From Ranitomeya variabilis (taxonomy: Eukaryota > Chordata > Amphibia > Anura > Dendrobatidae), in the NCBI RefSeq assembly GCF_051348905.1, contig NC_135238.1:92007988-92071987 (forward strand): a stretch of DNA of 64,000 bases, read 5' to 3'. Positions 34,736 to 61,444 of this stretch are shown in pieces. The notes below the pieces were generated by a model. That model did not search any database. It was given only the letters and a program-made list of their open reading frames with translations, and was not told the DNA's origin. Positions within the stretch are counted from its first letter, which is position 1; each line of letters starts with the position of its first letter. Both the position numbers and the translations under genes were made by a program.

Positions 34736-34741
34736 AATTCC

Positions 34742-36985: not shown

Positions 36986-37214
36986 ATAATTAGGTGACTG
37001 TCTACAGTATCCAGGTCTCCAGTTGTGTTCATCTTTCTACCACCTGAACTTTAATTCCTGGGCACCAAACCCGCCAGTTGAGGCTCAGAAGTGCCGTCTG
37101 GACAGTCAAAACATATGACCCAGTGTTATTGGGTGTCAGTAACGTCAGCTGATCCCCAGCTGTGTAGCCGGCAATGTGTTCTGCGACCGCCATGCTGACA
37201 CAACAACTGAAATG
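36986..37214. repeat. T1: first, degenerate unit of the hAT-2 satellite
   Basis: Directly after the transposase stop. It contains one diverged copy of the array unit (GAAGTGCCGTCTGGACAGTC, then TCAGTAACGTCAGCTGATCC). The satellite therefore begins inside the transposon's 3' region rather than as a separate insertion. Confidence 0.7.
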
Positions 37215-38235
37215 TAAGGGAACCTGTCCCCCCCCCAAGGCGTTTGTTACTGAAAGAGCCACCTTGTGCAGCAGTAATGCTGCACAAGGAAAAGGTAGCT
37301 ATTTTTGTTTAGCTCCTTGCACACGCAGAACTTAACACTTATAAAATGTGTTCACTGATACCGTAAAACCGTCCCGGAGGTGGGACTTTCCTTCGTAATG
37401 TGACGCAGCACAGCCGTCATTCTTAACCCCCGGCGCCGTGCGTTGGCTCCTCAGCGTTGTTTGATTCTGTCTCAAAGCCTGCGCTGTTATGTTATCCCTT
37501 GGCCAGGCACACTTAGCGCTGCCCCTCTTCTGACATCATTTGGTGTCATGCTGACTGCCCTGTGCGGCCGCACTGGCCGAGATCCCGCCTCGCAGTGTCT
37601 TCTGATTTAATCACACTGCGGGCCTGGGATCCATGGGCATGCGCAGTGCATATCTTCACCTCCGCCTCTCACTCATCTCCCTTCGCCTTCTTCAGACTGT
37701 GCGCCGTCAGCTGATCCCTAATAGCATGCCACGGCCGTGACACCGCACAGTCTGAAGAAGCCGGAGGGAGGGGAGTGAGAGGCGAGGATATGCACTGCGC
37801 ATGGCCACGGATCCCTGGCCCGCGGTGGGATTACATTAGACGACACTGCGAGGCGGGCTCTCGGCCAGCGCGGCCACACAGGCGCAGCCAGCCTGACACC
37901 AAATGATGTCAGAAGATGGGCAGCGCTAAGTGTGCCTGGCCAAGGGATAACATAACAGCGCAGGCTCCGGGACGGAATCAAACAACGCTGAGGAGCCGGG
38001 GCACGGCGCCAAGGGGGTAGGAATGACAGCTGTGCTGCGTCATATTACGAAGGAAAGTCCCACCTCTGGGACGGTCTCACGGTATCAGACACATTTAAAT
38101 AATATGTGTTTAGTTCTGTGTTTGCAAGGAGCATAATGAAAAGAGCCACCTTTTCCTTTTGCATCCTTTGTGCTGCACAAGCTGGCTCTTTCAGCTACAA
38201 ACGCCTTGGGGGGGGGGTTAAAGGTTCCCTTTTGA
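37215..38235. repeat. P1: about 1.0-kb imperfect palindrome
   Basis: The left end GGGAACCTGTCCCCCCCC...GGCGTTTG faces the right end CAAACGCCTTGGGGGG...GGTTCCC. The centre near 37723 has CTTCTTCAGACTGTGCG facing CGCACAGTCTGAAGAAG. Arms are about 505 bp. A small hairpin CCTTGTGCAGCAG-TAAT-GCTGCACAAGG lies in the left arm. No gene. Confidence 0.85.
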
Positions 38236-39360
38236 CTTTCTCCATTCGGGCTTCGGCCTACACTGTGTTCCTCTGCTCCTCCTGCTGTCCCTGTGCTCCA
38301 ACACCGCTAGTTGTTGTCCGGAAGTGCTGCCGCACAGTCAACAGTCGCTCCTCTGTTATTGGGGTTCAGTAACGTCAGCTGTCCCCCAGCTGTGTGTGTG
38401 GCAATCCCTCCTATCTCCTCCATCTCCTCCTCCTGCAGTCCCTGGGCTCCAACACCGCTAGTTGTTGTCCGGAAGTGCTGTCCGCACAGTCAACAGTCGC
38501 TCCTCTGTTATTGGGGTTCAGTAACGTCAGCTGTTCCCCAGCTGTGTGTGTGGCAATCCCTCCTATCTCCTCCACCTCCTCCTCCTGCTGTCCCTGGGCT
38601 CCAACACCACTAGTTGTTGTCCGGAAGTGCTGTCCGCACAGTCAACAGTCGCTCCTCTGTTATTGGGGTTCAGTAACGTCAGCTGTTCCCCAGCTGTGTG
38701 TGTGGCAATCCCTCCTATCTCCTCCACCTCCTCCTCCTGCTGTCCCTGGGCTCCAACACTGCTAGTTATTGTCCGGAAGTGCTGTCCGCACAGTCAACAG
38801 TCGCTCCTCTGTTATTGGGGTTCAGTAACGTCAGCTGTTCCCCAGCTGTGTGTGTCGCAATCCCTCCTATCTCCTCCACCTCCTCCTCCTGCTGTCCCTG
38901 GGCTCCAACACCGCTAGTTGTTGTCCGGAAGTGCTGTCCGCACAGTCAACAGTCGCTCCTCTGTTATTGGGGTTCAGTAACATCAGCTGTTCCCCAGCTG
39001 TGTGTGTGGCAATCCCTCCTATCTCCTCCGCCTCCTCCTCCTGCTGTCCCTGGGCTCCAACACCGCTAGTTGTTGTCTGGAAGTGCTGTCCGCACAGTCA
39101 ACAGTCGCTCCTCTGTTATTGGGGTTCAGTGACGTCAGCTGTTCCCCAGCTGTGTGTGTGGCAATCCCTCCTATCTCCTCCACCTCCTCCTCCTGCTGTC
39201 CCTGGGCTCCAACACCGCTAGTTGTTGTCCGGAAGTGCTGTCTGCACAGAGCCAAACACCTTGCCAATGTGTTAGTGGGGTTCAGTAATGCCTGCTGCTC
39301 CCCTGCTGTGTATACGGTAACGTGTCATGCGACCGCCACGCAGGCACAACAACTTAAATT
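38236..39360. repeat. T2: array of 152-bp units
   Basis: About seven head-to-tail units with an exact 152-bp period through most of the array (GGAAGTGCTGTCCGCACAGT, GGGGTTCAGTAACGTCAGCT, CTCCTCCTGCTGTCCCTGGG). Overlapping 123-residue frames shift by one unit each and are repeat artefacts, since 152 is not divisible by three. Confidence 0.93.
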
Positions 39361-40380
39361 TAAGGGAACCTGTCCCCCCCCCAGGCATTTGTAACTGAAA
39401 GAGCCACCTTCTGCAGCAGTAATGATGCAAAAGGAAAAAGTGTCTCTTTTCGTGGTGCTCCTTGCACATGCTGAACCTAACACTTGTGAAATGTGTCCCC
39501 TCACACCGTTAAACCGTCCGGTAGGTGGAACTTTCATTTGTCATGTGACGCAGCACAGCCGTCATTCTTACCCCCTTGGCGCCGTGCGCCGCCTCCTCAG
39601 CGTTGTTTGAATCTGTCCCGGAGCCTGAGCTGTAATGTTAGCCCTTGGCCATGCACACTTAGCGCTGCCCGTCTTCTGACATTATTTGGTGTCAGGCTGG
39701 CTGCGCCTGTGCAGCCGCGCTGGACCAGATCCCGCCTCGTAGTGTCTTCTGATTTAATCCCACTGCGGGCCTGGGATCCATGGACATTCTCAGTGCATAT
39801 CTTAACCTCCGCCTCTCACTCATCTACCTACGCCTTCTTCAGACTGTGCAACGTCAGCTGATCCCTAATAGCATGCCACGGCCATGACGCCGCACAGTAT
39901 GAAGAAGCCGTAGGGAGGAAAGTGAGAGGCGAGGATATGCACTGCTCATGCCCATGGATCACAGGTCCGCAGAGTGATTACATTAGATGACACAGCGAGG
40001 CGGGATCTTGGCCAGCGCGGCCACACAGGCGCAGCCAGCCTGACACCAAATGATGTCAGAAGACGGGCAGCGCAAAATGTGTGCATGGCCAAGGGCTAAC
40101 ATAACAGCGCAGGCTCCGAGACAGATTCAAACAACGCTGAGGAGGCGGCGCACGGCGCCAAGGGGGTAAGAAAGACGGCTGTGCTGCGTCACATGACAAA
40201 TGAAAGTTCCACCTACCGGACGGTTTAACGGTGGGAGGGGACACATTTCATAAGTGTCAAGTTCAGCGTTGCAAGGACCATAATTAAAAGAGCTAAGTTT
40301 ACCTATTTCAGCATTAGTGCTGTACAAGATGGCTCTTTCAGCTACAAACGCCTTGGGGGGGGGTTAAAGGTTCCCTTTCA
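39361..40380. repeat. P2: about 1.0-kb imperfect palindrome
   Basis: Same structure as P1, centre near 39870. Within the arms GCGCTGCCCGTCTTCTGACA (39662) faces TGTCAGAAGACGGGCAGCGC (about 40055). No gene. Confidence 0.85.
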
Positions 40381-41210
40381 ACTTGCTCCAGTGCAAGCTT
40401 CGGCCAATACTCTGCTCCTCCTGCTGACCCTGGGCTCTAACAGCGCCAGTTGGGGCCCGGAAGTGCTGGCTGCACAGAGCCAAACACCTCGCCAATGTGT
40501 CAGTGGGGTTCAGCACCACCAGCTGTTCCCCTGCTGTGTAGCTGGCATTGTGTCCTGCAAAAGCCACGCAGACACAAAGCTGCCGCCAGTGCAGGCTTTG
40601 GCCTACACTGTGCTCCCTCTACTCCTCCTGCTGACCCTGGGCTCTAACAACGCCAGTTGGGGCCCGGAAGTGCTGCCTGCACAGAGCCAAACACCTCGCC
40701 AATGTGTCAGTGGGGTTCAGCACCGCCAGCTGTTCCCCTGCTGTGTAGCCGGCATCGTGTCCTGCAAAAGCCACGCAGACACAAAGCTGCCGCCAGTGCA
40801 GGCTTCGGCCTACACTCTGCTCCCTCTACTCCTCCTGCTGACTCTGGGCTCTAACAACACCAGTTGGGGCCCGGAAGTGCTGGCTGCACAGAGCCAAACA
40901 CCTCGCCAATGTGTCAGTGGGGTTCAGCACCGCCAGCTGTTCCCCTGCTGTGTAGCCGGCATCGTGTCCTGCAAAAGCCACGCAGACACAAAGCTGCCGC
41001 CAGTGCAGGCTTCGGCCTACACTCTGCTCCCTCTACTCCTCCTGCTGACCCTGGGCTCTAACACCGCCAGTTGGTGCCCAGTAGTGCTAGCTGCACAGAG
41101 CCAAACACCTCGCCAATGTGTCAGTGGGGTTCAGCACCGCCAGCTGTTCCCCTGCTGTGTAGCCGGCATTGTGTCCTGCAACAGCCACGCAGACACAAGA
41201 ACTGAAATTG
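40381..41210. repeat. T3: array of 207-bp units
   Basis: Four units with a 207-bp period. The unit is homologous to the 152-bp unit but about 55 bp longer (extra segment AAGCTGCCGCCAGTGCAGGC...). Because 207 is 69 x 3, a frame stays open across the array (40391-41392, 333 residues made of 69-residue repeats). I treat that as a consequence of periodicity, not as a gene. Confidence 0.92.
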
Positions 41211-42115
41211 AAGGGAACCTGTCCCCCCTCCCCAGGCGTTTGTATGTTTTACAGCCACCTTGTACAGCAGTAATGCTGCATGTGTGCAAGGTGGCTCATA
41301 AACTTATTCTCCTTGCAAATGTGGAACTGAACACGTCTCAAATGTGTCCTCAGACCATTAAAACGTCCCTGAGGTGTGACTTTCCTTTGTAATGACACGC
41401 TGCAACCCCCTTGGTAGCGCTGCCCGTCTTCTGACATCATTGTTTGGCTGGCTGCACCTCTGCGGCCGCCCTGCCCGACACAACGCCCCTCGGTGTCTTA
41501 TTTATTTTGACTGCGAGGGTGTGATTGACGGGCATGAGTAGTGCATATCTTTGCCTGTTGTCACTCATCTCCTTCCGCCTTCTTCAGACTGCACGGCTTC
41601 ATGGCCGTGGCATGCGATAAGGGATCAGCTGACGCCGCACAGTCTGAAGCAGGTGTAAGGACCCAAGTGTGAGAGGCGAACATATGTACTGCGCAAGGCC
41701 ATGAATCCCAGCCCCGCAGTGTTTTAACAATGTAAAGACACTTTGGGGCTGGGATTCATGGGCATCGCGAACCGCAACGGCCAACATGAAATGATGTCAG
41801 AAGCCGGGCAGCGCATGGCCAAGGGATAACACGACAGCGCATACTCCTGTACAGCAAATAACGATGCTCAGGAGGCTGCGCCCAGCTCCAAGGTGGGATT
41901 TTTGACAGCTGGGCTGCGTCTCATTACGAAGGGAACTCCCGACTCCAAGACAGTTTGACTGTATAAGGGGCTAAATGTCATACGTGTTTCATTCAGCGTG
42001 TGCAAGGAACAAAATTTAAAAGAGCAACCTTTCACTTGGGCAGCATTACTGCTGCCCAAGGTGTGGCTCTTCTAGTTTGCAACCCCTGAGGGGGGGTTAA
42101 AGGTTACCTTTAAAA
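41211..42115. repeat. P3: about 0.9-kb imperfect palindrome
   Basis: Same palindrome family, with a shorter left arm. Centre near 41615, bounded by GGGAACCTGTCCCCCC and GGGGGGTTAAAGGTTACC. Confidence 0.82.
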
Positions 42116-42530
42116 TTGGTTCAACTAGGCTTCGGCCTACACTCTGCTCCCTCTGCTCCTGCTGACCCTGGGCTCTAACAACGCCAGTTGGTGCCCGGAA
42201 GTGCTGGCTGCACAGAGCAAAACACCTGCCAATGTGTCAGTGGGGTTCAGCACCGCCAGCTGTTCCCCTGCTGTGTAGCCGGCAACGTGTCCTGCAAAAG
42301 CCACACAGACACAAAGCTGCCGCCAGTGCAGGCTTCGGCCTACACTATGCTCCCTCTCCTCCTGCTGACCCTGGGCTCTAACACTGCCAGTTGGTGCCCG
42401 GTAGTGCTAGCTGCACAGAGCAAAACACCTCACCAATGTGTCAGTGGGGTTCAGCAACGCCAGCTGTTCCCCTGCTGTGTAGCTGGCAACGTGTCCTGCA
42501 AAAGCCACGCAGACACAAGAACTGAAATTG
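42116..42530. repeat. T4: two array units
   Basis: Two roughly 200-bp units of the T3 type between palindromes P3 and P4. Confidence 0.88.
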
Positions 42531-43440
42531 AAGGGAACCTGTCCCCCTACCCCAGGCGTTGGCATGTATAACAGCCACCTTGTACAGCAGTAATGCTGCA
42601 TTTCTACAAGGTGGCTCATTAAGTTACTCTCCTTGCACACGCCAAACGCAACACGTCTAAAATGTGTCCCCTGAGACCATTAAAACGTCCCTCAGGTGTG
42701 ACTTTCCTTTGTAATGACACGCTGCACCCCCCATGGTAGCGCTGCCTATCTTCTCACATCATTGTTTGGCTGGCTGCGTCTCTGCGGCCACCCTGCCCGA
42801 CACAACGCCCCTCGGTGTCTTATTTATTTTTACTGCGAGGGTGTGATTGATGGGCATGAGCAGTGCATATCTTCGCCTGTCACTCATCTCCTTCCGCCTT
42901 CTTCAGACTGTACGGCTTCATGGCCGTGGCATGCGATAAGGGATCAGCTGACGCCGCACAGTCTGTAGCAGGTGTAAGGACACGAGAGAGAGGCGAACAT
43001 ATGTACTGCGCAAGGCCATGAATCCCAGCCCCGTAGTGTGAAACAATGTAAAGACACTGCGGGGCTGAGATTCATGGGCATCGCGAACCGCACCGGCCGA
43101 CATTAAATGATGTCAGAAGACGGGCAGCGCTAACAGCGCGAGGCCAAGGGATAACACGACAGCGCAGACTCCTGTACAGCAAATAACGACGCTCAGGAGG
43201 CTGCGCCCAGCACCAAGGTGGTATTTTTGACAGCTGGGCTGCGTCTCATTAAGAAGGAAACTCCCGCCTCCAAGACAGTTTGACTGTATAAGGGGCTAAA
43301 TGTTATACGTGTTTCTTTCAGCGTGTGCAAGCAACAAAATTTAAAAGAGCAACCTTTGACTTCTGCAGCATTACTGCTGCCCAAGGTGTGTCTCTTCTAG
43401 TTTGTAACCCCTGAGGGGGGGTTAAAGGTTACCTTTAAAA
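42531..43440. repeat. P4: about 0.9-kb imperfect palindrome
   Basis: Palindrome family member. It starts the regular 1540-bp higher-order repeat: equivalent points at 42918 and 44458 are 1540 bp apart. Confidence 0.85.
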
Positions 43441-44075
43441 TTGGTTCAATTAGGCTTCGGCCTACACTCTGCTCCCTCTGCTCCTGCTGACCCTGGGCTC
43501 TAACAACGCCAGTTGGTGCCCGGAAGTGCTGGCTGCACAGAGAAAAACACCTCGCCAATGTGTCAGTGGGGTTCAGCAACGCCAGCTGTTCCCCTGCTGT
43601 GTAGCCGGCAACGTGTCCTGCAAACGCCATGCAGACACAACAGACCTAAAGCTGCCGCCAGTGCAGGCTTCGGCCTACACTCTGCTCCCTCTCCTCCTGC
43701 TGACCCTGGGCTCTAAAAATGCCAGTTGGGGCCCCGAAGTGCTGGCTGCACAGAGCAAAACACCTCGCCAATGTGTCAGTGGGGTTCAGCACCGCCAGCT
43801 GTTCCTCTGCTGTGTAGCTGGCAACGTGTCCTGCAAAAGCCACGCAGACACAAAGCTGCCACCAGTGCAGGCTTTGGCCTACACTATGCTCCCTCTGCTC
43901 CTCCTGCTGACCCTGGGCTCTAACAACGCCAGTTGGGGCCCAGAAGTGCTGGCTGCACAGAGAAAAACACCTCGCCAATGTGTCAGTGGGGTTCAGCAAC
44001 GCCAGCTGTTCCCCTGCTGTGTAGCCGGCATCGTGTCCTGCAAACGCCACGCAGACACAAGAACTGAAATTGAAG
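43441..44075. repeat. T5: three array units
   Basis: Three units of about 205-213 bp, the first with a short ACAGACCTAAAGCTG variant also found in T6 and T7. Confidence 0.88.
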
Positions 44076-44975
44076 GGAACCTGCCCCCCTACCCCAGGCG
44101 TTGGCATGTATAACAGCCACCTTGTACAGCAGTAATGCTGCATTTGTACAAGGTGGCTCATTAAGTTACTCTCCTTGCACACGCCAAACGCAACACGTCT
44201 AAAATGTGTCCCCTGACCATTAAAACATCCCTCAGGTGTGACTTTCCTTTGTAATGACATGCTGCACCCCCCTTGGTAGCACTGCCCGTTTTCTCACATC
44301 ATTGTTTGGCTGGCTGCGCCTCTGTGGCCGCCCTGCCCGACACAACACCCCTCGGTGTCTTATTTATTTTGACTGCGAGGGTGTGATTGACGGGCATGAG
44401 CAGTGCATATCTTCGCCTGTCACTCATCTCCTTCCGCCTTCTTCAGACTGTACGGCTTCATGGCCGTGGCATGCGATAAGGGATCAGCTGACGCCGCACA
44501 GTCTGTAGCAGGTGTAAGGACACGAGTGAGAGGCGAACATATGTACTGCGCAAGGCCATGAATCCCAGCCCCGCAGTGTGAAACAATGTAAAGACACTGC
44601 GGGGCTGAGATTCATGGGCATCGCGAACCACACCGGCCGACATTAAATGATGTCAGAAGACGGGCAGCGCTAACAGCGCAAGGCCAAGGGATAACACAAA
44701 AGCGCAGACTCCTGTACAGCAAATAACGACGCTCAGGAGGCTACGCCCAGCACCAAGGTGGTATTTTTGACAGCTGGGCTGCGTCTCATTAAGAAGGAAA
44801 CTCCCGCCTCCAAGACAGTTTGACTGTATAAGGGGCTAAATGTTATACGTGTTTCTTTCAGCGTGTGCAAGGAACAAAATTTAAAAGAGCAACCTTTGAC
44901 TTGTGCAGCATTACTGCTGCCCAAGGTGTGGCTCTTCTAGTTTGTAACCCCTGAGGGGGGTTAAAGGTTACCTTT
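44076..44975. repeat. P5: about 0.9-kb imperfect palindrome
   Basis: Very similar to P4, offset by 1540 bp. The inner arms keep CTTCTTCAGACTGTACGG facing CGCACAGTCTGTAGCAGG. Confidence 0.85.
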
Positions 44976-45612
44976 AAAATTGGTTCAATTAGGCTTCGGC
45001 CTACACTCTGCTCCCTCTGCTCCTGCTGACCCTGGGCTCTACAACGCCAGTTGGTGCCCGGAAGTGCTGGCTGCACAGAGAAAAACACCTCGCCAATGTG
45101 TCAGTGGGGTTCAGCAAAGCCAGCTGTTCCCCTGCTGTGTAGCCGGCAACGTGTCCTGCAAACGCCACGCAGACACAACAGACCTAAAGCTGCCGCCAGT
45201 GCAGGCTTCGGCCTACACTCTGCTCCCTCTCCTCCTGCTGACCCTTGGCTCTAACAACGCCAGTTGGGGCCCAGAAGTGCTGGCTGCACAGAGCCAAACA
45301 ACTCGCCAATGTGTCAGTGGGGTTCAGCACCGCTAGCTGTTCCCCTGCTGTGTAGCTGGCAACATGTCCTGCAAAAGCCACGCAGACACAAAGCTGCCGC
45401 CAGTGCAGGCTTCGGCCTACACTATGCTCCCTCTACTCCTCCTGCTGACCCTGGGCTCTAACAACGCCAGTTGGGGCCCAGAAGTGCTGGCTGCACAGAG
45501 AAAAACACCTCGCCAATGTGTCAGAGGGGTTCAGCAACGCCAGCTGTTCCCCTGCTGTGTAGCCGGCATCGTGTCCTGCAAACGCCACGCAAACACAAGA
45601 ACTGAAATTGAA
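44976..45612. repeat. T6: three array units
   Basis: Three T5-like units in the same order as in T5. Confidence 0.88.
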
Positions 45613-46383
45613 GGGAACCTGTCCCCCTACCCCAGGCGTTGGCATGTATAACAGCCACCTTGTACAGCAGTAATGCTGCATTTGTACAAGGTGGCTCATT
45701 AAGTTACTCTCCTTGCACACGCCAAACGCAACACGTCTAAAATGTGTCCCCTGAGACCATTAAAACGTCCCTCAGGTGTGACTTTCCTTTGTAATGACAC
45801 GCTGCACCCCCCTTGGTAGCGCTGCCTGTCTTCTCACATCATTGTTTGGCTGGCTGCGCCTCTGCGGCCGTCCTGCCCGACACAACACCCCTCGGTGTCT
45901 TATTTGTTTTGACTGCGAGGGTGTGATTGACGGGCATGAGCAGTGCATATCTTCGCCTGTCACTCATCTCCTTCCGCCTTCTTCAGACTGTACGGCTTCA
46001 TGGCCGTGGCATGCGATAAGGGATCAGCTTACGCCGCACAGTCTGTAGCAGGTGTAAGGACACGAGTGAGAGGCGAACATATGTACTGCGCAAGGCCATG
46101 AATCCCAGCCCCGCAGTGTGAAACAATGTAAAAAGACACTGCGGGGCTGAGATTCATGGGCATCGCGAATCGCATCGGCCGACATTAAAAGATGTCAGAA
46201 GACGGGCAGCGCTAACAGCGCAAGGCCAAGGGATAACACGACAGCGCAGACTCCTGTACAGCAAATAACGACGCTCAGGAGGCTGCGCCCAGCACCAAGG
46301 TGGTATTTTTGACAGCTGGGATGCTTCTCATTAAGAAGGAAACTCCCACCTCCAAGACAGTTTGACTGTATAAGGGGCTAAAT
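45613..46383. repeat. P6, left part (split by gypsy-4)
   Basis: A palindrome unit offset 1540 bp from P5. It is interrupted at ctaaat and resumes at 57807 after gypsy-4. Confidence 0.88.
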
Positions 46384-47142
46384 TGTTATGACCCCAATGG
46401 TGAGGGTCTCAGAGATATCAGCAAGTCTGCAAAGTTCAAAAATCCAGCTCATAGGGCAGTGGTAACTGGGTTGACCATATATCTACTCCTAACGCCAACA
46501 CTAGAAGTAGCCGGGGAACATGCCTACGTTGGTCGCTAGATGTCTCGCGCCAGCCGGAGAGCTAACTACCCCTAGAAGAGGAAAACAAAGACCTCTCTTG
46601 CCTCCAGAGAAAAAGACCCCAAAAGTAGGGTACAAGCCCCCCACAAATAATAACGGTGACGTAAGAGGAAATGACAAACACAGAGATGAACTAGGTTTAG
46701 CAAAGAGAGGCCCACTTACTAATAGCAGAATGTAGTAAGATAACTTATATGGTCAACAAAAACCCTATCAAAATCCACGCTGGAGATTCAAGAACCCCCG
46801 AACCGTCTAACGGCCGGGGGGAGAACACCAGCCACCCTAGAGCTTCCAGCAAGGTCAGGATACAGATAATATACAAGCTGGACAAAAATGCAAACAAAAA
46901 CGAATAGCAGAAAGCAAGAAAGCAGACTTAGCTTAATCAAGCAGGAACCAGGATCAGTAGACAAGAGCACTACAGATTAGCTCTGATATCAATGTTGCCA
47001 GGCATAGAACTGAAGGTCCAGGGAGCTTATATAGCAACACCCCTGACCTAACGACCCAGGTGAGCATACAAAGGATGATAGACATACCCAGAGTAAAATC
47101 ACTAGTAGCCACTAGAGGGAGCCAAAAGGTAAATTCACAACA
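46384..47142 (-). repeat. gypsy-4 3' LTR
   Basis: A 759-bp direct repeat of 57048-57806, adjacent to the ctaaat target duplication. Confidence 0.94.
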
Positions 47143-47152
47143 GTACCCCCCC

Positions 47153-48668
47153 TTAGTGAGGGGTCACCAAACCCTCACCAAGACCACCAGGGCGATCAGG
47201 ATGAGCGGCATGAAAGGCACGAACTAAATCGGCCGCATGCACATCAGAGGCGACCACCCAGGAATTATCCTCCTGACCATAGCCCTTCCACTTGACCAGG
47301 TACTGAAGCCTCCGCCTGGAGAGACGAGAATCTAAGATCTTCTCCACCACGTACTCCAACTCGCCCTCAACCAACACCGGAGCAGGAGGCTCAGCAGAAG
47401 GAACCACAGGCACAACGTACCGCCGCAACAAGGACCTATGAAATACGTTGTGAATGGCAAACGACACCGGAAGATCCAGGCGAAAGGATACAGGATTAAG
47501 GATCTCCAATATCTTGTAAGGACCAATGAATCAAGGCTTAAATTTGGGAGAGGAGACCTTCATAGGAACAAATCGAGAAGACAGCCATACCAAATCCCCA
47601 ACACGAAGTCGGGGACCCACACCGCGGCGGCGGTTGGCAAAACGCTGAGCCTTCTCCTGTGACAACTTCAAGTTGTCCACCACATGATTCCAGATCCGCT
47701 GCAACCTATCCACCACAGAATCCACTCCAGGACAGTCAGAAGGCTCCACATGTCCCAAGGAAAAATGAGGATGGAAACCGGAGTTGCAGAAAAATGGCGA
47801 AACCAAGGTGGCAGAACTAGCCCGATTATTAAGGGCAAATTCAGCCAACGGCAAGAAGGTCACCCAATCATCCTGATCAGAAGAGACAAAACACCTCAAA
47901 TACGCCTCCAGAGTCTGATTAGTTCGTTCCGTTTGTCCGTTAGTCTGTGGATGAAAAGCGGACGAAAACGACAAATCAATGCCCATCCTACCACAAAAGG
48001 ATCGCCAGAACCTGGACACAAACTGGGATCCTCTGTCCGACACAATATTCTCAGGAATGCTGTGCAAACGAACCACGTTCTGGAAGAACACAGGAACCAA
48101 ATCAGAAGAGGAAGGCAGCTTAGGCAAAGGAACCAGATGGACCATCTTGGAGAAACGATCACATATCACCCAGATGACAGACATGCCCTTAGACACCGGA
48201 AGATCCGAAATGAAATCCATAGAGATGTGTGTCCAAGGTCTCTTCGGGACAGGCAAGGGCAAGAGCAACCCGCTGGCACGAGAACAGCAAGGCTTAGCTC
48301 GAGCACAAGTACCACAGGACTGCACAAATGACCGCACATCCCTTGACAAGGAAGGCCACCAAAAGGACCTGGCCACCAGATCTCTGGTGCCAAAAATTCC
48401 CGGGTGCCCTGCCAACACTGAGGAATGAACCTCGGAAATGACTCTGCTGATCCATTTAGCAGGCACAAACAATCTGTCAGGTGGACAAGAGTCAGGCCTA
48501 CCAGCCTGAAATCTCTGCAACACACGTCGCAGATCTGGAGAAATAGCTGACAAGATAACTCCTTCCTTAAGAATACCCTCAGGTTCAGCGAATCCAGGAG
48601 CATCAGGCACAAAGCTCCTAGACAGAGCATCGGCCTTCACATTCTTAGAACCTGGTAAATACGAGACC
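47153..48668 (-). pseudogene. gypsy-4 pol, integrase-chromodomain part (fossil)
   Basis: The end of gypsy-4 pol: the last part of RNase H, the integrase and the chromodomain. It is separated from the rest by gypsy-5, whose target duplication gagacc occupies 48663-48668. Broken. Confidence 0.9.
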
Positions 48669-49400
48669 TGTCAAGGTTCTCAATGGCAAGAGAACGTAGT
48701 AAAGCATACAAAATGACTAGCTCTTGGAAGATGGGAACTCGAGCTGACTGTGAGCTAAACCTACCGCACAACTAACAGTGGCCGGGTAGCGTGCCTACGT
48801 TTTATCCCTAGACGCCCAGCGCCAGCCGGAGGACTGACTGACCCTAGCAGAGGAAAATACAGACCTGGCTTACCTCTAGAGAAATTTTCCCCAAAAGGCA
48901 GACAGTAGCCCCCACATATATTGTCGGTGATTGTAGAGGAAATTGACATACGAAGTATGAAGATAGGTTTAGCAAAATGAGGTCCGCTTACTAGATAGTA
49001 GGAAGACAGAAAAGGGAACTTCACAGTCAGCTGAAAACCCTTTCAAAACACCATCCTGAAATTACTTTAAGACTCTAATATCAACTCATGACACCAGAGT
49101 GGCAATTTCAGCTCACAATAGCTTCCAGCCTCAGAAATATTCAATCACAGAGAACTGGAACAAAAATGCAAAACAAACTTAGGACTAAAAGTCCAACTTA
49201 GCTGATAGTAGTCTAGGAGCAGGAACATGCAACAGAAAGGCTTCTGGTAACATTGTTGGCCGGCATAGAAATGACTGAGCAGCAAGGCTAAATAGAAAAC
49301 TCCCACAACCTGATGGAAACAGGTGAACAGAGGGGATGAAGCACACAAGTTCAGTACCACCAGTGACCACCGGGGGAGCCCAGAAACCAAATTCACAACA
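48669..49400 (-). repeat. gypsy-5 3' LTR
   Basis: A 732-bp direct repeat, almost identical to 53632-54363. Confidence 0.96.
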
Positions 49401-49410
49401 GTACCCCCCC

Positions 49411-52400
49411 TCAAGGAGGGGGCACCGAACCCTCACCAGAACCACCAGGGCGATCAGGATGAGCCCTATGAAAGGCACGGACCAAATCGGAGGCATGAAC
49501 ATCAGAGGCTGTCACCCAAGAATTATCCTCCTGACCGTAGCCCTTCCACTTGACCAGATACTGAAGTCTCCGTCTGGAAACACGGGAGTCCAAGATCTTC
49601 TCGACAACGTACTCCAACTCACCCTCAACCAACACCGGAGCAGGAGGCTCAACGGAAGGCACAACCGGTACCTCATACCTGCGCAACAATGACCGATGGA
49701 AGACATTATGAATAGAAAAAGATGCAGGGAGGTCCAAACGAAAGGACACAGGGTTAAGAATCTCCAATATCTTGTACGGGCCGATGAACCGAGGCTTAAA
49801 CTTAGGAGAAGAAACCTTCATAGGGACAAAACGAGAAGACAACCACACCAAGTCCCCAACACAAAGACGAGGACCAACACGACGACGGCGGTTGGCAAAC
49901 TGCTGAGTCTTCTCCTGGGACAACTTCAAATTGTCCACCACATGCCCCCAAATCTGATGCAACCTCTCCACCACAGCATCCACTCCAGGACAATCTGAAG
50001 ACTCCACCTGACCGGAAGAGAAACGAGGATGAAACCCCGAATTACAGAAGAAAGGAGAAACCAAGGTGGCAGAACTAGCCCGATTATTGAGGGCAAACTC
50101 CGCCAAGGGCAAAAAGGCAACCCAATCATCCTGATCCGCAGACACAAAACACCTCAAATAAGTCTCCAAGGTCTGATTAGTTCGCTCGGTCTGGCCATTA
50201 GTCTGAGGATGGAAAGCAGACGAAAAAGACAAATCAATGCCCATCCTAGCACAGAATGCTCGCCAAAATCTAGACACGAATTGGGTTCCCCTGTCAGAAA
50301 CGATATTCTCCGGAATACCATGCAAGCCAACCACATTTTGAAAAAACAGAGGAACCAGCTCGGATGAGGAAGGCAATTTAGGCAAGGGGACCAAATGGAC
50401 CATCTTAGAGAAACGGTCACACACCACCCAGATGACAGACATCTTCTGAGAAACAGGGAGATCAGAAATAAAATCCATGGAGATGTGAGTCCAAGGCCTC
50501 TTTGGAATAGGCAAAGATAACAACAATCCACTAGCCCGAGAACAACAAGGCTTGGCCCGAGCACAAACATCACAAGACTGCACAAAACCTCGCACATCTC
50601 GCGACAGGGAAGGCCACCAGAAGGACCTAGCCACCAAATCCCTGGTACCAAAGATTCCAGGATGACCAGCTAACGCAGAAGAATGGACCTCCGAGATGAC
50701 TCTACTGGTCCAATCATCCGGAACAAACAGTCTACCAGGCGGGCAACGATCAGGTCTATCCGCCTGAAACTCCTGCAAGACCCGTCGCAAGTCTGGGGAA
50801 ACAGCAGATAATATCACTCCATCCTTAAGGATACCTGTAGGTTCAGAATTACCAGGGGAATCAGGCTCAAAACTCCTAGAAAGGGCATCCGCCTTCACAT
50901 TTTTAGAACCCGGTAGGTAAGAAACCACAAAATTAAACCGAGAGAAAAATAACGACCAGCTAGGATTCAGGCGCCTGGCAGACTCAAGATAAATCAAATT
51001 CTTGTGGTCGGTCAATACCACCACCTGATGTCTAGCCCCCTCAAGCCAATGACGCCACTCCTCAAAAGCCCACTTCATAGCCAAGAGCTCCCGATTACCA
51101 ATATCATAATTTCGCTCAGCGGGCGAAAATTTACGAGAAAAGAACGCGCAAGGTCTCATCACAGAGCAGTCGGAACTTTTCTGCGACAAAACCGCCCCAG
51201 CTCCGATTTCTGAAGCATCGACCTCAACCTGAAAAGGAAGAGTAACATCAGGCTGACGCAATACAGGGGCGGAAGAAAAGCGGCGCTTAAGCTCCCGAAA
51301 GGCCTCCACAGCAGCAGGGGACCAATCAGCAACATCAGCACCCTTCTTAGTCAAATCAGTCAACGGCTTAGCAACATCAGAAAAACCAGTTATAAATCGA
51401 CGATAAAAATTAGCAAAGCCCAAAAACTTCTGAAGGCTCTTAAGAGAAGAGGGTTGCGTCCAATCACAAATAGCCTGAACCTTGACAGGGTCCAGCTCAA
51501 TGGAAGAGGGGGAAAAAATGTACCCCAAAAACGAAATCTTTTGAACCCCAAAAACACACTTAGAACCCTTTACACACAAGGAATTAGAGCGCAAAACCTG
51601 AAAAACCCTCCTGACCTGTTGGACATGAGAGTCCCAGTCATCCGAAAAAATCAAAATATCATCCAGATACACAATCATAAATTTATCCAAATATTCACGG
51701 AAAATGTCATGCATAAAAGACTGAAAGACTGAAGGGGCATTTGAAAGACCAAAAGGCATTACCAAATACTCAAAATGACCCTCAGGCGTATTAAATGCGG
51801 TTTTCCACTCATCCCCCTGCTTAATTCGCACTAAATTATACGCCCCACGAAGATCAATCTTAGAGAACCACTTGGCCCCCTTTATTCGAGCAAACAAATC
51901 AGTAAGCAGTGGCAAAGGATACTGATATTTAACCGTGATTTTATTCAAAAGCCGATAATCAATACACGGCCTCAAAGAGCCATCTTTTTTAGATACAAAG
52001 AAAAAACCGGCTCCTAAGGGAGATGACGAAGGACGAATATGTCCCTTTTCCAAGGACTCCTTAAAATATTCCCGCATAGCAGCATGTTCAGGCACAGATA
52101 GATTAAATAAACGACCCTTTGGAAACTTACTGCCCGGAATCAGATCTATAGTACAATCGCAATCTCTGTGCGGAGGTAGTGAACCAAGTTTAGGCTCCTC
52201 AAAAACGTCACGATAATCAGACAAAAATTCCGGAATCTCAGAGGGAATAGATGACGAAATGGAAACCAAAGGTACGTCCCCATGAGTCCCCTGACATCCC
52301 CAGCTTAACACAGACATTGCTTTCCAGTCGAGGACTGGGTTATGAGATTGCAGCCATGGCAATCCAAGCACCAACACATCATGTAGATTATACAACACAA

Positions 52401-53451
52401 GGAAGCGAATAATCTCCTGGTGATCCGGATTAATACGCATAGTTACTTGTGTCCAGTATTGTGGTTTATTACTAGCCAATGGCGTGGAGTCAATACCCTT
52501 CAGAGGTATAGGAACTTCCAGAGGCTCTAAATTAAACCCACAGCGTTTGGCAAAGGACCAATCCATAAGACTCAAAGCGGCGCCAGAGTCGACATAGGCG
52601 TCCGCGGTAATAGACGATAAAGAGCAAATCAGGGTCACAGATAGAATAAACTTAGACTGTAAAGTGCCAATTGAAACAGACTTATCAACCTTCTTAGTAC
52701 GTTTAGAGCATGCTGATATAACATGAGTTGAATCGCCACAATAGAAGCATAACCCATTTTTTCGCCTAAAATTCTGTCGTTCGCTTCTGGACAGAATTCT
52801 ATCACATTGCATAATCTCTGGCGCCTTCTCAGTAGACACCGCCAAATGGTGCACAGGTTTGCGCTCCCGCAAACGCCGATCAATCTGAATAGCCATTGTC
52901 ATGGACTCATTCAGACCTGTAGGCACAGGGAACCCCACCATAACATCTTTAATGGCATCAGAGAGACCCTCTCTGAAGTTCGCCGCCAGGGCGCACTCAT
53001 TCCACTGAGTAAGCACAGACCACTTACGAAATTTTTGGCAGTATATTTCAGCCTCATCTTGCCCCTGAGACAGGGCCATCAAGGCTTTTTCAGCCTGAAT
53101 CTCTAAATGAGGTTCCTCATAAAGCAACCCCAAAGCCAGGAAAAACGCATCCACATTGAGCAACGCAGGATCCCCTGGTGCCAAAGCAAATGCCCAATCC
53201 TGAGGGTCGCCCCGGAGCAAGGAAATTACAATCCTGACCTGCTGTGCAGGATCTCCAGCGGAGCGAGATCTCAGAGACAAAAATAATTTACAATTATGTT
53301 TGAAATTCTGGAAGCGAGATCTATCCCCGGAGAAAAATTCAGGTAAAGGAATTCTAGGTTCAGATATAGGAGCATGAATTACAAAATCCTGTAAACTTTG
53401 AACCTTCATAGCGAGATTATTCAAATCTGTAGCTAAACTCTGAGGATCCAT
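49411..53451 (-). CDS. gypsy-5 gag-pol polyprotein
   Basis: 1346 residues in one frame, starting MDPQSLATDLNNLAMKVQ. Parts: gag (about 1-250) ending in a CCHC knuckle at 235-248; aspartic protease with DSG at 288-290; reverse transcriptase (about 450-690) with YLDD at 595-598; RNase H (about 742-860); integrase zinc-binding region (about 923-963) and catalytic core (about 990-1095); chromodomain (about 1278-1325). This is the standard domain order of the chromovirus branch of Ty3/Gypsy. Gag and pol are fused in one frame. Serves here as the reference for the other four copies. Confidence 0.94.
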   Translation of the reverse strand: MDPQSLATDLNNLAMKVQSLQDFVIHAPISEPRIPLPEFFSGDRSRFQNFKHNCKLFLSLRSRSAGDPAQQVRIVISLLRGDPQDWAFALAPGDPALLNVDAFFLALGLLYEEPHLEIQAEKALMALSQGQDEAEIYCQKFRKWSVLTQWNECALAANFREGLSDAIKDVMVGFPVPTGLNESMTMAIQIDRRLRERKPVHHLAVSTEKAPEIMQCDRILSRSERQNFRRKNGLCFYCGDSTHVISACSKRTKKVDKSVSIGTLQSKFILSVTLICSLSSITADAYVDSGAALSLMDWSFAKRCGFNLEPLEVPIPLKGIDSTPLASNKPQYWTQVTMRINPDHQEIIRFLVLYNLHDVLVLGLPWLQSHNPVLDWKAMSVLSWGCQGTHGDVPLVSISSSIPSEIPEFLSDYRDVFEEPKLGSLPPHRDCDCTIDLIPGSKFPKGRLFNLSVPEHAAMREYFKESLEKGHIRPSSSPLGAGFFFVSKKDGSLRPCIDYRLLNKITVKYQYPLPLLTDLFARIKGAKWFSKIDLRGAYNLVRIKQGDEWKTAFNTPEGHFEYLVMPFGLSNAPSVFQSFMHDIFREYLDKFMIVYLDDILIFSDDWDSHVQQVRRVFQVLRSNSLCVKGSKCVFGVQKISFLGYIFSPSSIELDPVKVQAICDWTQPSSLKSLQKFLGFANFYRRFITGFSDVAKPLTDLTKKGADVADWSPAAVEAFRELKRRFSSAPVLRQPDVTLPFQVEVDASEIGAGAVLSQKSSDCSVMRPCAFFSRKFSPAERNYDIGNRELLAMKWAFEEWRHWLEGARHQVVVLTDHKNLIYLESARRLNPSWSLFFSRFNFVVSYLPGSKNVKADALSRSFEPDSPGNSEPTGILKDGVILSAVSPDLRRVLQEFQADRPDRCPPGRLFVPDDWTSRVISEVHSSALAGHPGIFGTRDLVARSFWWPSLSRDVRGFVQSCDVCARAKPCCSRASGLLLSLPIPKRPWTHISMDFISDLPVSQKMSVIWVVCDRFSKMVHLVPLPKLPSSSELVPLFFQNVVGLHGIPENIVSDRGTQFVSRFWRAFCARMGIDLSFSSAFHPQTNGQTERTNQTLETYLRCFVSADQDDWVAFLPLAEFALNNRASSATLVSPFFCNSGFHPRFSSGQVESSDCPGVDAVVERLHQIWGHVVDNLKLSQEKTQQFANRRRRVGPRLCVGDLVWLSSRFVPMKVSSPKFKPRFIGPYKILEILNPVSFRLDLPASFSIHNVFHRSLLRRYEVPVVPSVEPPAPVLVEGELEYVVEKILDSRVSRRRLQYLVKWKGYGQEDNSWVTASDVHASDLVRAFHRAHPDRPGGSGEGSVPPP

Positions 53452-53631
53452 TTTAATCAGGTGAAATCAGAACCATTCAAGGATTAGAAGGAGAGAGAGA
53501 CGAAGGCTGCAGTAAGCAGAGATGCAAGTGAATCAACTAATGAGCAAACTCAGGAAAAAAAAAAAAATTCTCTGCAGACTTCTTTTCTCTCCTTTCTTCT
53601 GCCAATTATTTTATCCCTTGGCCGGCCAAAC

Positions 53632-54363
53632 TGTCAAGGTTCTCAATGGCAAGAGAACGTAGTAAAGCATACAAAATGACTAGCTCTTGGAAGATGGGAA
53701 CTCGAGCTGACTGTGAGCTAAACCTACCGCACAACTAACAGTGGCCGGGTAGCGTGCCTACGTTTTATCCCTAGACGCCCAGCGCCAGCCGGAGGACTGA
53801 CTGACCCTAGCAGAGGAAAATACAGACCTGGCTTACCTCTAGAGAAATTTTCCTCAAAAGGCAGACAGTAGCCCCCACATATATTGTCGGTGATTGTAGA
53901 GGAAATTGACATACGAAGTATGAAGATAGGTTTAGCAAAATGAGGTCCGCTTACTAGATAGTAGGAAGACAGAAAAGGGAACTTCACAGTCAGCTGAAAA
54001 CCCTTTCAAAACACCATCCTGAAATTGCTTTAAGACTCTAATATCAACTCATGACACCAGAGTGGCAATTTCAGCTCACAAGAGCTTCCAGCCTCAGAAA
54101 TATTCAATCACAGAGAACTGGAACAAAAATGCAAAACAAACTTAGGACTAAAAGTCCAACTTAGCTGATAGTAGTCTAGGAGCAGGAACATGCAACAGAA
54201 AGGCTTCTGGTAACATTGTTGGCCGGCATAGAAATGACTGAGCAGCAAGGCTAAATAGAAAACTCCCACAACCTGATGGAAACAGGTGAACAGAGGGGAT
54301 GAAGCACACAAGTTCAGTACCACCAGTGACCACTGGGGGAGCCCAGAAACCAAATTCACAACA
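53632..54363 (-). repeat. gypsy-5 5' LTR
   Basis: A 732-bp LTR followed by gagacc, the target duplication within gypsy-4. Confidence 0.96.
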
Positions 54364-56899
54364 GAGACCACAAAGTCAAAACGGGAGAAAAACAATGACC
54401 AGCGGGCCTGTCTAGGATTCAGGCGTTTAGCAGACTCGAGGTACATCAGATTTTTGTGATCAGTCAAGACCACCACACGATGCTTAGCACCCTCGAGCCA
54501 ATGATGCCACTCCTCAAATGCCCACTTCATGGCCAACAACTCCCGATTGCCCACATCATAATTTCGCTCTGCCGGCGAAAACTTCCTAGAGAAAAAGGCA
54601 CAAGGTCTCATAGTAGAACAACCAGGACCTCTCTGCGACAAAACGGCCCCTGCCCCAATCTCCGAAGCATCCACCTCAACCTGAAAGGGAAGTGAGATGT
54701 CAGGCTGGCACAAAACAGGCGCCGAAGTAAACCGGCGTTTCAACTCTTGGAAAGCCTCCACGGCAGCAGGAGCCCAGTTAGCCACATCAGAGCCTTTCTT
54801 GGTCATATCCGTCAACGGTTTAACAACGCTAGAAAAATTAGCGATAAAACGACGGTAGAAGTTAGCAAAACCCAAGAACTTCTGAAGACTCTTAACTGAC
54901 GAGGGTTGAGTCCAATCATGAATAGCTCGGACCTTGACTGGGTCCATCTCCACAGCAGAAGGGGAAAAAATGAACCCTAAAAAGGGAACCTTCTGTACAC
55001 CAAAGAGACACTTTGAGCCTTTAACAAAGAATTTTCACGCAAAATCTTGAAAACCATCCTGACCTGCTCCACATGCGAGTCCCAATCATAAGAAAAAACC
55101 AGAATATCATCCAGATAAACGATCAAAAATTTATCCAGATACTTCCGGAAAATGTCATGCATAAAGGACTGAAAAACTGAAGGTGCATTAGAGAGCCCAA
55201 ATGGCATCACTAAGTACTCAAAATGACCTTCGGGCGTATTGAATGCGGTTTTCCATTCATCTCCTTGCTTAATGCGCACAAGGTTGTACGCACCACGAAG
55301 GTCTATCTTGGTGAACCACTTGGCACCTTTAATCCGGGCAAACAAGTCTGACAACAGCGGCAAAGGATACTGAAATTTGACAGTGATCTTATTTAAAAGC
55401 CGATAGTCAATACAAGGCCTCAAAGATCCGTCCTTTTTGGCCACAAAAAAGAATCCCGCACCAAGAGGGGAAGAAGAAGGACGGATATGCCCCTTCTCCA
55501 GAGACTCCTTGATATATGAACGCATCGCGGTATGTTCAGGTACCGACAGATTAAACAGTCTTCCCTTAGGAAACTTACTGCCTGGAATCAAATCTATTGC
55601 ACAGTCACATTCCCTATGAGGAGGCAATGCACTTGACCTAGACTCGCTGAAGACATCCTGATAATCAGACAAATACGCCTTAACTTCCGAAGGCGTAGAA
55701 GTAGCAATAGACACGGGCAGGGAATCTCCATGAATTCCATGACAGCCCCAACTTGACACTGACATTGCCTTCCAGTCCAAGACTGGATTATGGGTCTGTA
55801 ACCATGGCAAACCCAAAACAACCAAATCATGCATCTTATGCAGAACAAGAAAACGTATCACCTCCCAATGTTCAGGAGTCATGCACATGGTAACCTGTGT
55901 CCAAAACTGCGGTTTATTTTCTGCCAATGGCGTAGCATCAATACCCCTAAGAGGGATAGGATTTTCTAATGGCTCAAGAACAAAACCGCAGCGCTTGGCA
56001 AATGACAGATCCATAAGACTCAGGGCAGCACCTGAATCCACAAACGCCATGACAGGATACGATGACAGTGAGCAAATCAAAGTTACAGATAGAATAAACT
56101 TAGGTTGCAAATTACCAATGGCGACAGGACTAACAACCTTAGTAAGACGCTTAGAGCATGCTGAGATAACATGTGTAGAATCACCACAGTAGTAACACAA
56201 GCCATTCTGGCGTCTATGAATTTTCCGCTCATTTCTAGTCAGGATTCTATCACATTGCATTAAATCAGGTGCCTGTTCAGATAACACCATGAGGGAATTT
56301 GCGGTTTTGCGCTCCCGCAACCGCCGGTCAATTTGAATTGCCAGAGCCATGGAATCATTCAGACCTGTGGGAATGGGAAAACCCACCATCACATTCTTAA
56401 TGGCTTCAGAAAGGCCATTTCTAAAATTTGCAGCCAATGCACACTCGTTCCACTGGGTCAGCACGGACCATTTCCGAAATTTTTGGCAATACACTTCAGC
56501 CTCGTCCTGGCCCTGAGACATAGCCAGCAAGGCTTTTTCTGCCTGAATCTCAAGATTGGGTTCCTCATAAAGCAAACCGAGCGCCAGAAAAAACGCATCA
56601 ATATCAGGCAATGCCGGATCTCCTGGCGCCAGCGAGAAAGCCCAATCCTGAGGGTCGCCCCGTAAAAAAGAAATAACAATTTTCACTTGCTGAGCGGAGT
56701 CTCCAGAGGAACAGGGTCTCAGGGACAAAAACAATTTACAATTATTCCTGAAATTTCTAAACTTAAATCGATCTCCGGAAAACAGTTCAGGAATCGGTAT
56801 CTTAGGTTCTGACATAGGATTTCTGGTAACATAATCTTGTATGCCCTGCACACAAGCAGCAAGCTGGTCCACACTTGTAATCAAGGTCTGGACATTCAT
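54364..56899 (-). pseudogene. gypsy-4 gag to RNase H part (fossil)
   Basis: The first part of gypsy-4 gag-pol, from MNVQTLITSVDQ: gag with CCHC knuckle, protease, reverse transcriptase and most of RNase H, up to the gypsy-5 insertion. Broken. Very close to gypsy-3 in sequence. Confidence 0.9.
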
Positions 56900-57047
56900 G
56901 TCTGCAGCAATCACAAGCCACTCAGAGGTGAAGGGGAAAAGAAAAAAAAATGAGAGAGAGAAAAAAAAAACAAAAAAAACTCAGAACTTTCTTTCTTGTA
57001 ATCCCGCTTCTGCAATGCATTTAACATTTAATACTGGCCTGGCAAAC

Positions 57048-57806
57048 TGTTATGACCCCAATGGCGAGGGTCTCAGAGATATCAGCAAGTCTGCAAAGTT
57101 CAAAAATCCAGCTCATAGGCCAGTGGTAACTGGGTTGACCATATATCTACTCCTAACGCCAACACTAGAAGTAGCTGGGGAACATGCCTACGTTGGTCGC
57201 TAGATGTCTCGCACCAGCCGGAGAGCTAACTACCCCTAGAAGAGGAAAACAAAGACCTCTCTTGCCTCCAGAGAAAAAGACCCCAAAAGTAGGATACAAG
57301 CCCCCCACAAATAATAACGGTGAGGTAAGAGGAAATGACAAACACAGAGATGAACTAGGTTTAGCAAAGAGAGGCCCACTTACTAATAGCAGAATGTAGT
57401 AAGATAACTTATATGGTCAACAAAAACCCTATCAAAATCCACGCTGGAGATTCAAGAACCCCCGAACCGTCTAACGGCCGGGGGGAGAACACCAGCCACC
57501 CTAGAGCTTCCAGCAAGGTCAGGATACAGATAATATACAAGCTGGACAAAAATGCAAACAAAAACGAATAGCAAAAAGCAAGAAAGCAGACTTAGCTTAA
57601 TCAAGCAGGAACCAGGATCAGTAGACAAGAGCACTACAGATTAGCTCTGATATCAACGTTGCCAGGCATAGAACTGAAGGTCCAGGGAGCTTATATAGCA
57701 ACACCCCTGACCTAACGACCCAGGTGAGCATACAAAGGATGATAGACATACCCAGAGTAAAATCACTAGTAGCCACTAGAGGGAGCCAAAAGGTAAATTC
57801 ACAACA
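57048..57806 (-). repeat. gypsy-4 5' LTR
   Basis: A 759-bp LTR with about eight differences from 46384-47142. It is followed by ctaaat, the target duplication. Confidence 0.94.
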
Positions 57807-57955
57807 CTAAATGTTATACATGTTTCTTTCAGTGTGTGCAAGGAAGAAAATTTAAAAGAGCAACCTTTGACTTGTGCAGCATTACTGCTTCCCAAGGTGT
57901 GGCTCTTCTAGTTTGTAACCCCTGAGGGGGGGTTAAAGGTTACCTTTAAAATTGG
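57807..57955. repeat. P6, right part
   Basis: Resumption of palindrome P6 after gypsy-4, running to the GGGGGGGTTAAAGGTTACC end. Confidence 0.88.
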
Positions 57956-58590
57956 TTCAATTAGGCTTCAGCCTACACTCTGCTCCCTCTGCTCCTGCTG
58001 ACCCTGGTCTCTAACAACGCCAATTGGTGCCCGGAAGTGCTGGCTGCACAGAGAAAAACACCTCGCCAATGTGTCAGTGGGGTTCAGCAACGCCAGCTGT
58101 TCCCCTGCTGTGTGCTGTGTAGCCGGCAACGTGTCCTGCAAACGCCACGCAGACACAACAGACCTAAAGCTGCCGCCAGTGCAGGCTTCGGCATACACTC
58201 TGCTCCCTCTCCTCCTGCTGACCCTGGGCTCTAACAACGCCAGTTGGGGCCCAGAAGTGCTGGCTGCACAGAGCCAAACACCTCGCCAATGTGCCAGTGG
58301 GGTTCAGCACCGCCAGCTGTTCCCCTGCTGTGTAGCTGACAACGTGTCCTGCAAAAGCCACGCAGACACAAAGCTGCCGCCAGTGCAGGCTTTGGCCTAC
58401 ACTATGCTCCCTCTACTCCTCCTGCTGACCCTGGGCTCTAACAATGCCAGTTGGGTCCCAGAAGTGCTGGCTGCACAGAGAAAAACTCCTCACCAATGTG
58501 TCAGTGGGGTTCAGCAACGCCAGCTGTTCCCCTGCTGTGTAGCCGGCATCGTGTCCTGCAAACGCCACGCAGACACAAGAACTGAAATTG
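57956..58590. repeat. T7: three array units
   Basis: Same three-unit order as T5 and T6, including the ACAGACCTAAAGCTG variant. The 69-residue-periodic frame at 58071-58631 is a repeat artefact. Confidence 0.88.
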
Positions 58591-59500
58591 AAGGGAACCT
58601 GTCCCCCTACCCCAGGCATTGGCATGTATAACAGCCACCTTGTACAGCAGTAATGCTGCATTTGTACAAGGTGGCTCATTAAGTTACTCTCCTTGCACAC
58701 GCCAAACGCAACACGTCTAAAATGTGTCCCCTGAGACCATTAAAACGTCCCTCAGGTGTGACTTTCCTTTGTAATGACACACTGCACCCCCCTTGGTAGC
58801 GCTGCCCGTCTTCTCACATCATTGTTTGGCTGGCTGCGCCTCTGCGGCCGCCCTGCCCGACACGACGCCACTCGGTGTCTTATTTATTTTGACTGCGAGG
58901 GTGTGATTGATGGGCATGAGCAATGCATATCTTTGCCTGTCACTCATCTCCTTCCGCCTTCTTCAGACTGTACGGCTTCATGGCCGTGGCATGCGATAAG
59001 GGATCAGCTGATGCCGCACAGTCTGTAGCATGTGTAAGGACACGAGTGAGAGGCGAACATATGTACTGCGCAAGGCCATGAATCCCAGCCCCGCAGTGTG
59101 AAACAATGTAAAGACACTGCGGGGCTGAGATTCATGGGCATCGCGAACTGCACCGGCCGACATTAAATGATGTCAGAAGACGGGCAGCGCTAACAGCGCA
59201 GGCCAAGGGATAACACGACAGCGCAGACTCCTGTACAGCAAATAACGATGCACAGGAGGCTGCGCCCAGCTCCAAGGTGGGATTTTTGACAGCTGGGCTG
59301 CATCTCATTACGAAGGAAACTCCCGCCTCCAAGACAGTTTGACTGTATAAGGGGCTAAATGTCATACGTGTTTCATTCAGCGTGTGCAAGGAACAAAATT
59401 TAAAAGAGCAACCTTTGACTTGTGCAGCATTACTGCTGGCCAAGGTGTGTCTCTTCTAGTTTGTAACCCCTGAGGGGGGGTTAAAGGTTACCTTTAAAAT
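58591..59500. repeat. P7: about 0.9-kb imperfect palindrome
   Basis: The last palindrome. Allowing for gypsy-4, it is offset about 1550 bp from P6. Confidence 0.85.
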
Positions 59501-60350: not shown

Positions 60351-60970
60351 GTTCAAGACCCTAAAGACGATGACCCGGAAGACCACCCCTAAGATGACGA
60401 TGACACCAGAGACGACAACCACTGAGATGACGACGACCCTGGAGACGACGACGACGACATGGGAGACCAAGAAGCACAAGAACAAGAGGCTGCAGAACAA
60501 AGAGCAGAAGAACATTAAGCATAACACTAAATATCAGAGCAAAAGATATTATCTAAATTATAAGCAGAAGAAGACTAAGCAGTGTATGGGGGTGAGTCCG
60601 TTCCTCCTCGTGGTGCCCCTGGATAAAGCCTGATGCTGCAGGCCAAACTGAACGCGGACAAATGTAACTCTTTTGTGACAGGCAGAACGAAAGGTGTAAT
60701 CTTCAAACTTTTATAGATAACAACTACGGGAATGCCTGTCACAAATAAGAATTTGATGAAGAACTTGAATATGGAGAAGAATAATAGTTAAATAAAAAGA
60801 ATATGAACAATGTAACAAAAAAATAATAGGTAGAAGATGAAGAAGAAGATGAATAAGGTGAAGAAGAAGTTGATGTCAAAGATGCTGCTGCTGAGGATGA
60901 TGAAGAAGAAAGTGTCGGAGAAGTAAAAATGAAGGTGAAGGGCATGGAAGTAGTGAAACATCAATATCTG
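60351..60970 (+). other. purine-rich GAN/AAG-repeat region near hAT-2 right end
   Basis: Strongly biased to GAC, GAT and AAG triplets on the plus strand. A frame from 60253 to 60633 reads Thr/Lys-rich sequence (MTPETTTTEMTTTLETTTT). I see no recognisable domain or splice signals and do not call a gene. The complement gives Ser-rich low-complexity frames. Confidence 0.5.
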
Positions 60971-61431: not shown

Positions 61432-61444
61432 TGAGCGCCATGTA

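Follow-up and report, generated by a model that had tools for sequence, protein, structure and literature searches.

What is the nature of seven large palindromes that alternate with tandem repeats in the genome of Ranitomeya variabilis: a conserved device that makes RNA or cruciforms, or sequences passively multiplied within something larger? We analysed the 64,000 nucleotides of DNA in which they lie (the window hereafter). Self-BLAST and direct inspection bore out the alternation that the original prediction had announced. The palindromes, P1 to P7, are each 0.90-1.02 kb long (self-BLAST, direct inspection and boundary search), and arrays of a unit named T separate them, in the following order, where no strand is given to palindromes:

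37008-37215, + strand: first T-type unit, directly after the stop codon of a transposase gene
37216-38232: palindrome P1, arms 87% identical (self-BLAST, boundary search)
38233-39361, + strand: T array 1, after P1, 152-bp unit x 6.4 (tandem-repeat analysis)
39362-40378: palindrome P2, arms 87% identical (self-BLAST, boundary search)
40379-41210, + strand: T array 2, 207-bp unit
41211-42111: palindrome P3, arms 72% identical, spacer inverted with respect to P1/P2
42112-42530, + strand: T array 3
42531-43436: palindrome P4, inverted spacer
43437-44072, + strand: T array 4 (tandem-repeat analysis)
44073-44975: palindrome P5 (boundary search)
44976-45610, + strand: T array 5 (tandem-repeat analysis)
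45611-46383: left part of palindrome P6 (boundary search)
46384-57806, - strand: Gypsy nest splitting P6, two Gypsy elements, 11.4 kb, target-site duplication (TSD) CTAAAT
57813-57947: right part of palindrome P6, the uninterrupted form being given by P4, P5 and P7
57948-58590, + strand: T array 6 (tandem-repeat analysis)
58591-59495: palindrome P7 (boundary search)
59496-60365, + strand: T array 7, which grades into a 66-bp/265-bp array with a shared GTTCAGTAACGTCAGCTG-like motif

The T unit measures 152 bp in T array 1 and 204-220 bp from T array 2 on. Self-BLAST matches 37057-37411 to 39201-39555, among others. From start to start, the palindromes are spaced by 2146, 1849, 1320, 1542, 1538 and ~1557 bp (the last value, from P6 to P7, after subtracting the Gypsy nest), and the combined unit of about 1540 bp that had been proposed from P4 on is therefore right. 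The small hairpin with its GTAAT loop and the GCGCTGCCCGTCTTCTGACA arm segment are both there, degraded in some arms. As for the continuity of the repeat, the seven units stand, but P6 is interrupted by the 11.4 kb of retrotransposons, with outer LTRs at 46384-47142 and 57048-57806 and an inner element at 48668-54364. We rejected the idea that the palindromes belong to Gypsy elements, the latter having nested later, inside P6. Folded as single strands, P1 and P4 reach z = -33 and z = -21 against dinucleotide shuffles, and by these scores the palindromic structure is far beyond chance. Long inverted and tandem repeats are hard to assemble, and the order or number of the palindrome units might be wrong; yet the copies differ by 3-28%, the nested insertions are bounded by clean TSDs of 6 bp, with matching uninterrupted forms, so that an assembly artefact is extremely improbable.

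Two observations concern the T arrays themselves. Between 38364 and 60300, almost all T units contain a GTTCAGTAACGTCAGCTG-like motif, which also occurs in the 66-bp array close to the right end (23 pattern hits on the + strand and 0 on the - strand). T array 2 is spanned by a 387-aa open frame (40229-41392), which has a 69-aa repeat and a unit length divisible by 3; since both strands of a neighbouring array are open, it is probably not coding. Coding was rejected for the T arrays at large: in places, both strands are open in units of 207/213 bp, whereas units of 152 and 220 bp break the frame.

The whole block lies within a much larger structure, the parts of which are these:

26551-61302, + strand: giant hAT transposon holding all palindromes and arrays (terminal inverted repeats, TIRs; empty-site match)
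26551-26561, + strand: left TIR, then CCGATA/TATCGG subterminal repeats at 26565-26647
27119-28052, + strand: 260-bp tandem array in the hAT 5' non-coding part (TRF, 3.6 copies, 95% match)
28234-36985, + strand: degenerate hAT transposase gene, with a premature stop near 35115 and frameshifts, split by a Gypsy element
29358-34735, - strand: Gypsy LTR retrotransposon inside the transposase gene, 6-bp TSD AATTCC
61292-61302, - strand: right TIR, preceded by CCGATA/TATCGG subterminal repeats at 61179-61283

The element is 34.75 kb long, or ~17.95 kb without its nested retrotransposons. Its 11-bp TIRs, TAGTGTTGAGC on the left and GCTCAACACTA on the right, match at 11/11 positions and are each unique within the window. 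The CCGATA/TATCGG repeats cluster less than ~130 bp from each end, and subterminal sites of hAT elements likewise cluster near the element ends. The transposase comprises an N-terminal BED finger (PF02892, E=4.3e-7) and a C-terminal hAT dimerisation domain (PF05699, E=1.4e-14, 54 bits for a cut-off of 21). A polyadenylation-type signal, ATTAAA, overlaps its stop codon (36981). The T array begins less than ~70 bp from this stop codon and ends ~1 kb short of the right end of the hAT.

Both sides of the element are flanked by the same tandem array of tRNA-Ser(GCT)/tRNA-Thr(AGT), with a unit of 1207 bp, and the two flanks, once joined, align through the insertion point with the intact array copy 61931-62159, which gives an empty site. 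The target-site duplication reads ACTATCAG on the left; on the right it reads ACTA, after which ~11 bp are missing with respect to the empty site, with 4/8 bases recognisable. From the TIRs, the tRNA-array flanks, the empty site, the transposase upstream and the CCGATA/TATCGG ends, it follows that a single giant hAT, now dead, has the palindromes and arrays as its 3' non-coding part. That the palindromes might be ends of the hAT was rejected, the CCGATA/TATCGG repeats being absent from them. Could the block be an independent palindromic satellite of the host, organized as a higher-order repeat, into or beside which the hAT inserted? From P4 on, the unit does have the behaviour of a higher-order repeat; however, the whole block stands between the hAT TIRs with tRNA-array DNA beyond both ends, a T unit starts at the transposase stop and the motif extends as far as the 66-bp array close to the right end, and this reading is very improbable. 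The earlier statement that the structure is not a described satellite holds within the literature searched, but an independent satellite it is not.

The tRNA array deserves a few words of its own. The tRNA-Ser(GCT) and tRNA-Thr(AGT) genes are on opposite strands, and the 1207-bp array occupies 61430-64000 and 24100-26550. Its right-hand copies are 99.9% identical; those on the left have decayed and retain tRNA-like relics on the minus strand. Inside this decayed part, an inverted-repeat insertion flanked by TTA (25270-25670, GGCTAGGTTCACATTGCGTTA .. TAACGCAATGTGAACCTAGCC) looks like a small MITE. Other elements populate the left of the window. At its left end, a second, related hAT transposase gene (258-11299, minus strand), which a Gypsy element (1162-6867) interrupts, shares 44-52% amino-acid identity with the main one over the best-aligned parts. 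On its 5' side it has a 149-bp tandem array of ~19 copies (8536-11299); large arrays beside hAT genes thus recur in this genome. Its 3' side falls beyond the window. A Harbinger-type transposase (DDE_Tnp_4, 20204-21175, minus strand) lies within 13097-21796, together with a possible companion ORF (13097-13747), and a Gypsy element (13676-19397) stands between the two.

How did the palindromes come to be seven? Their junctions read ..GCAGRCACAA(C/G)AACT.. before and ..GGCTTCGGCC.. after the palindrome (GCTTCGGCC after P2), and in T units free of palindromes both junction sequences are found close together. All palindromes therefore share one position in the ~207-bp T unit, which means that one palindrome-bearing unit was amplified. 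The copies fall at graded distances from one another: P4-P7 are 96-97% identical among themselves (3-4% apart), P3 is 93% identical to them (7% apart), P1 and P2 are 87% identical (13% apart), and P1/P2 are 72-74% identical to P3-P7 (26-28% apart). The flanking tRNA-array copies differ from their neighbours by no more than ~4%, against 3-28% for the palindromes, and the array is therefore probably older than the present insertion, most of the palindrome divergence probably predating it, on the assumption that no recent homogenisation of the tRNA array masks an older divergence of the flanks.

The two arms of each palindrome tell what happened next. Those of P1 and P2 are 87% identical and self-complementary over ~1.0 kb. 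Those of P3-P7, which had been predicted and are present, are merely 72-75% identical when each palindrome is compared with its own reverse complement, and 66-70% in a multiple arm alignment. In P4/P7, 96 sites are arm-specific and 0 concerted, the same arm-specific differences being common to the copies. Where P3-P7 changed at consensus-paired sites, the pair is broken in 51/53 cases and compensated in 0/53: arm pairing is not maintained in these copies. This is the divergence without preserved pairing which the original prediction had associated with a palindrome that is only a relic of one duplication. The latter formula is too simple, because the arms have exchanged sequence, in P1/P2 and at the spacer. 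Between P1 and P2, the arm alignment has all 14 concerted sites within columns 121-302 and all 17 arm-specific sites outside them (Fisher p = 3.8e-9, an optimistic value since the block was delimited after inspection of the data). Where the concerted sites could be polarised against P3-P7 as an outgroup, the derived state is found mostly in P2, and at some sites in P1. Furthermore, P3-P7 carry the P1/P2 spacer in reverse-complement orientation (P3/P4 aligned with P1 score 110 when reversed and 40-43 when forward). A homogenised tract and a spacer inversion thus document exchange between arms, of which nothing is seen after the amplification of P3-P7. Arm homogenisation and spacer inversion are precisely what has been reported to result when the template is switched between inverted repeats (PMC8604942), and the palindromes of the human Y chromosome display gene conversion with rare inversion between arms (PMC3723533).

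These data bear directly on the proposal that the palindromes are a functional source of hairpins, a putative long double-stranded RNA that would be diced into small RNAs silencing or regulating the transposon. The very strong predicted folding speaks for it, as does the position of the palindromes, downstream of the transposase gene and on the same strand. So does the frequency of substitutions in P3-P7, slightly lower at paired (2.2%) than at unpaired sites (3.7%, p = 0.014), a signal that weak constraint could produce, but that could also stem from general conservation of the sites. We nevertheless consider this proposal improbable: pairing in P3-P7 decays without compensation, the palindromes may lie outside the transcript because of the ATTAAA signal at the transposase stop, and Rfam returned no match other than tRNAs. 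Another putative role, on the analogy of the long TIRs of Galileo, would be that of transposase-binding or transposition-enhancer sites distributed over arrays and palindromes. The GTTCAGTAACGTCAGCTG-like motif is regularly repeated and restricted to one strand (23 against 0), a tandem array is also found on the 5' side of the hAT, and the tandem repeats in the TIRs of Galileo hold transposase binding sites (PMC3688188). Yet the CCGATA/TATCGG repeats, which resemble subterminal binding sites, are at both ends of the element and not in the palindromes or arrays, and the block is internal, one-sided and far from the left end; a binding role is unlikely. A broader view is just as doubtful, namely that the module is a standing 3' part of a family of giant hATs, putatively serving the element through hairpin RNA, transposase docking or chromatin, and kept by arm-to-arm conversion as long as the element was active.

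We are thus left with palindromes that look like passively duplicated inverted repeats rather than a conserved device for making RNA or cruciforms, and that are probably without a function of their own. To the corresponding reading – passive passengers of a large hAT, shaped by amplification of the palindrome together with T units, by arm exchange and by drift – we give a probability of roughly three in four. From the sequence, we infer the following scenario. The T array belongs to the hAT element itself, and a foldback or MITE-like inverted repeat, with MITE-like ends (AAGGGAACCT..), would have entered one point of one T unit. The palindrome is a long, near-complete inverted repeat devoid of coding capacity, with no transposase-like ORF; inspection of the flanks of P1, P2 and P3-P7 found no consistent target-site duplication at its ends, so that a MITE origin is an unproven guess. 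Two patterns for arm and end motifs gave 0 exact matches in viral contigs. Tandem duplication, by unequal exchange or replication slippage, would then have multiplied the palindrome with its T unit, so that P1 and P2 form an old pair and P3-P7 a younger block. As long as the two arms remained similar, they would have undergone template switching or recombination, by which the middle tract was homogenised and the spacer inverted, while the later copies would have undergone plain drift and decay. Finally, the palindromes would have been carried along when the hAT inserted in the tRNA array; a single copy of the element having been analysed, we can only infer that array and hAT moved together.

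This locus offers a readable case of a satellite-like higher-order repeat arising inside a mobile element, with a legible sequence of events: an inverted repeat nests, is amplified, exchanges sequence between its arms and decays, before retrotransposons invade. Together, P1/P2 and P3-P7 preserve in nature the traces that template switching or recombination leaves at long inverted repeats, and a hAT of ~18 kb would rank among the larger ones. Our searches of the open literature found no hAT with palindrome arrays. The layout is unusual; its kind, tandem or foldback repeats on DNA transposons, is already known (PMC9659126; PMC4079207). In Xenopus, tandem repeats ride on MITEs (Xstir on Xmix, and miDNA4; reviewed in PMC9659126). 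There too, tandem or satellite-like arrays reside inside inverted-repeat DNA transposons of a vertebrate, but the elements are non-autonomous, whereas the present hAT has a transposase gene and ~18 kb, and its array units alternate with palindromes of 0.9-1 kb. Tetris, a foldback element of Drosophila virilis, is similarly an inverted-repeat transposon, and the tandem repeats that it holds, ~220 bp long, expand into satellite-like arrays (PMC4079207); these repeats are inside its terminal inverted repeats, whereas the palindromes and arrays of the hAT, the TIRs of which span 11 bp, are internal and one-sided. Galileo, of the P superfamily, resembles the hAT in bearing a transposase and tandem repeats with a possible binding-site role (PMC3688188), yet it belongs to another superfamily, and its repeats are part of the TIRs instead of an internal one-sided block. 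As to the arms, the closest likeness, homogenised arms and inverted spacers, is with template-switched inverted repeats (PMC8604942) and human Y palindromes (PMC3723533), from which the present palindromes differ in being fossil tracts inside a transposon.
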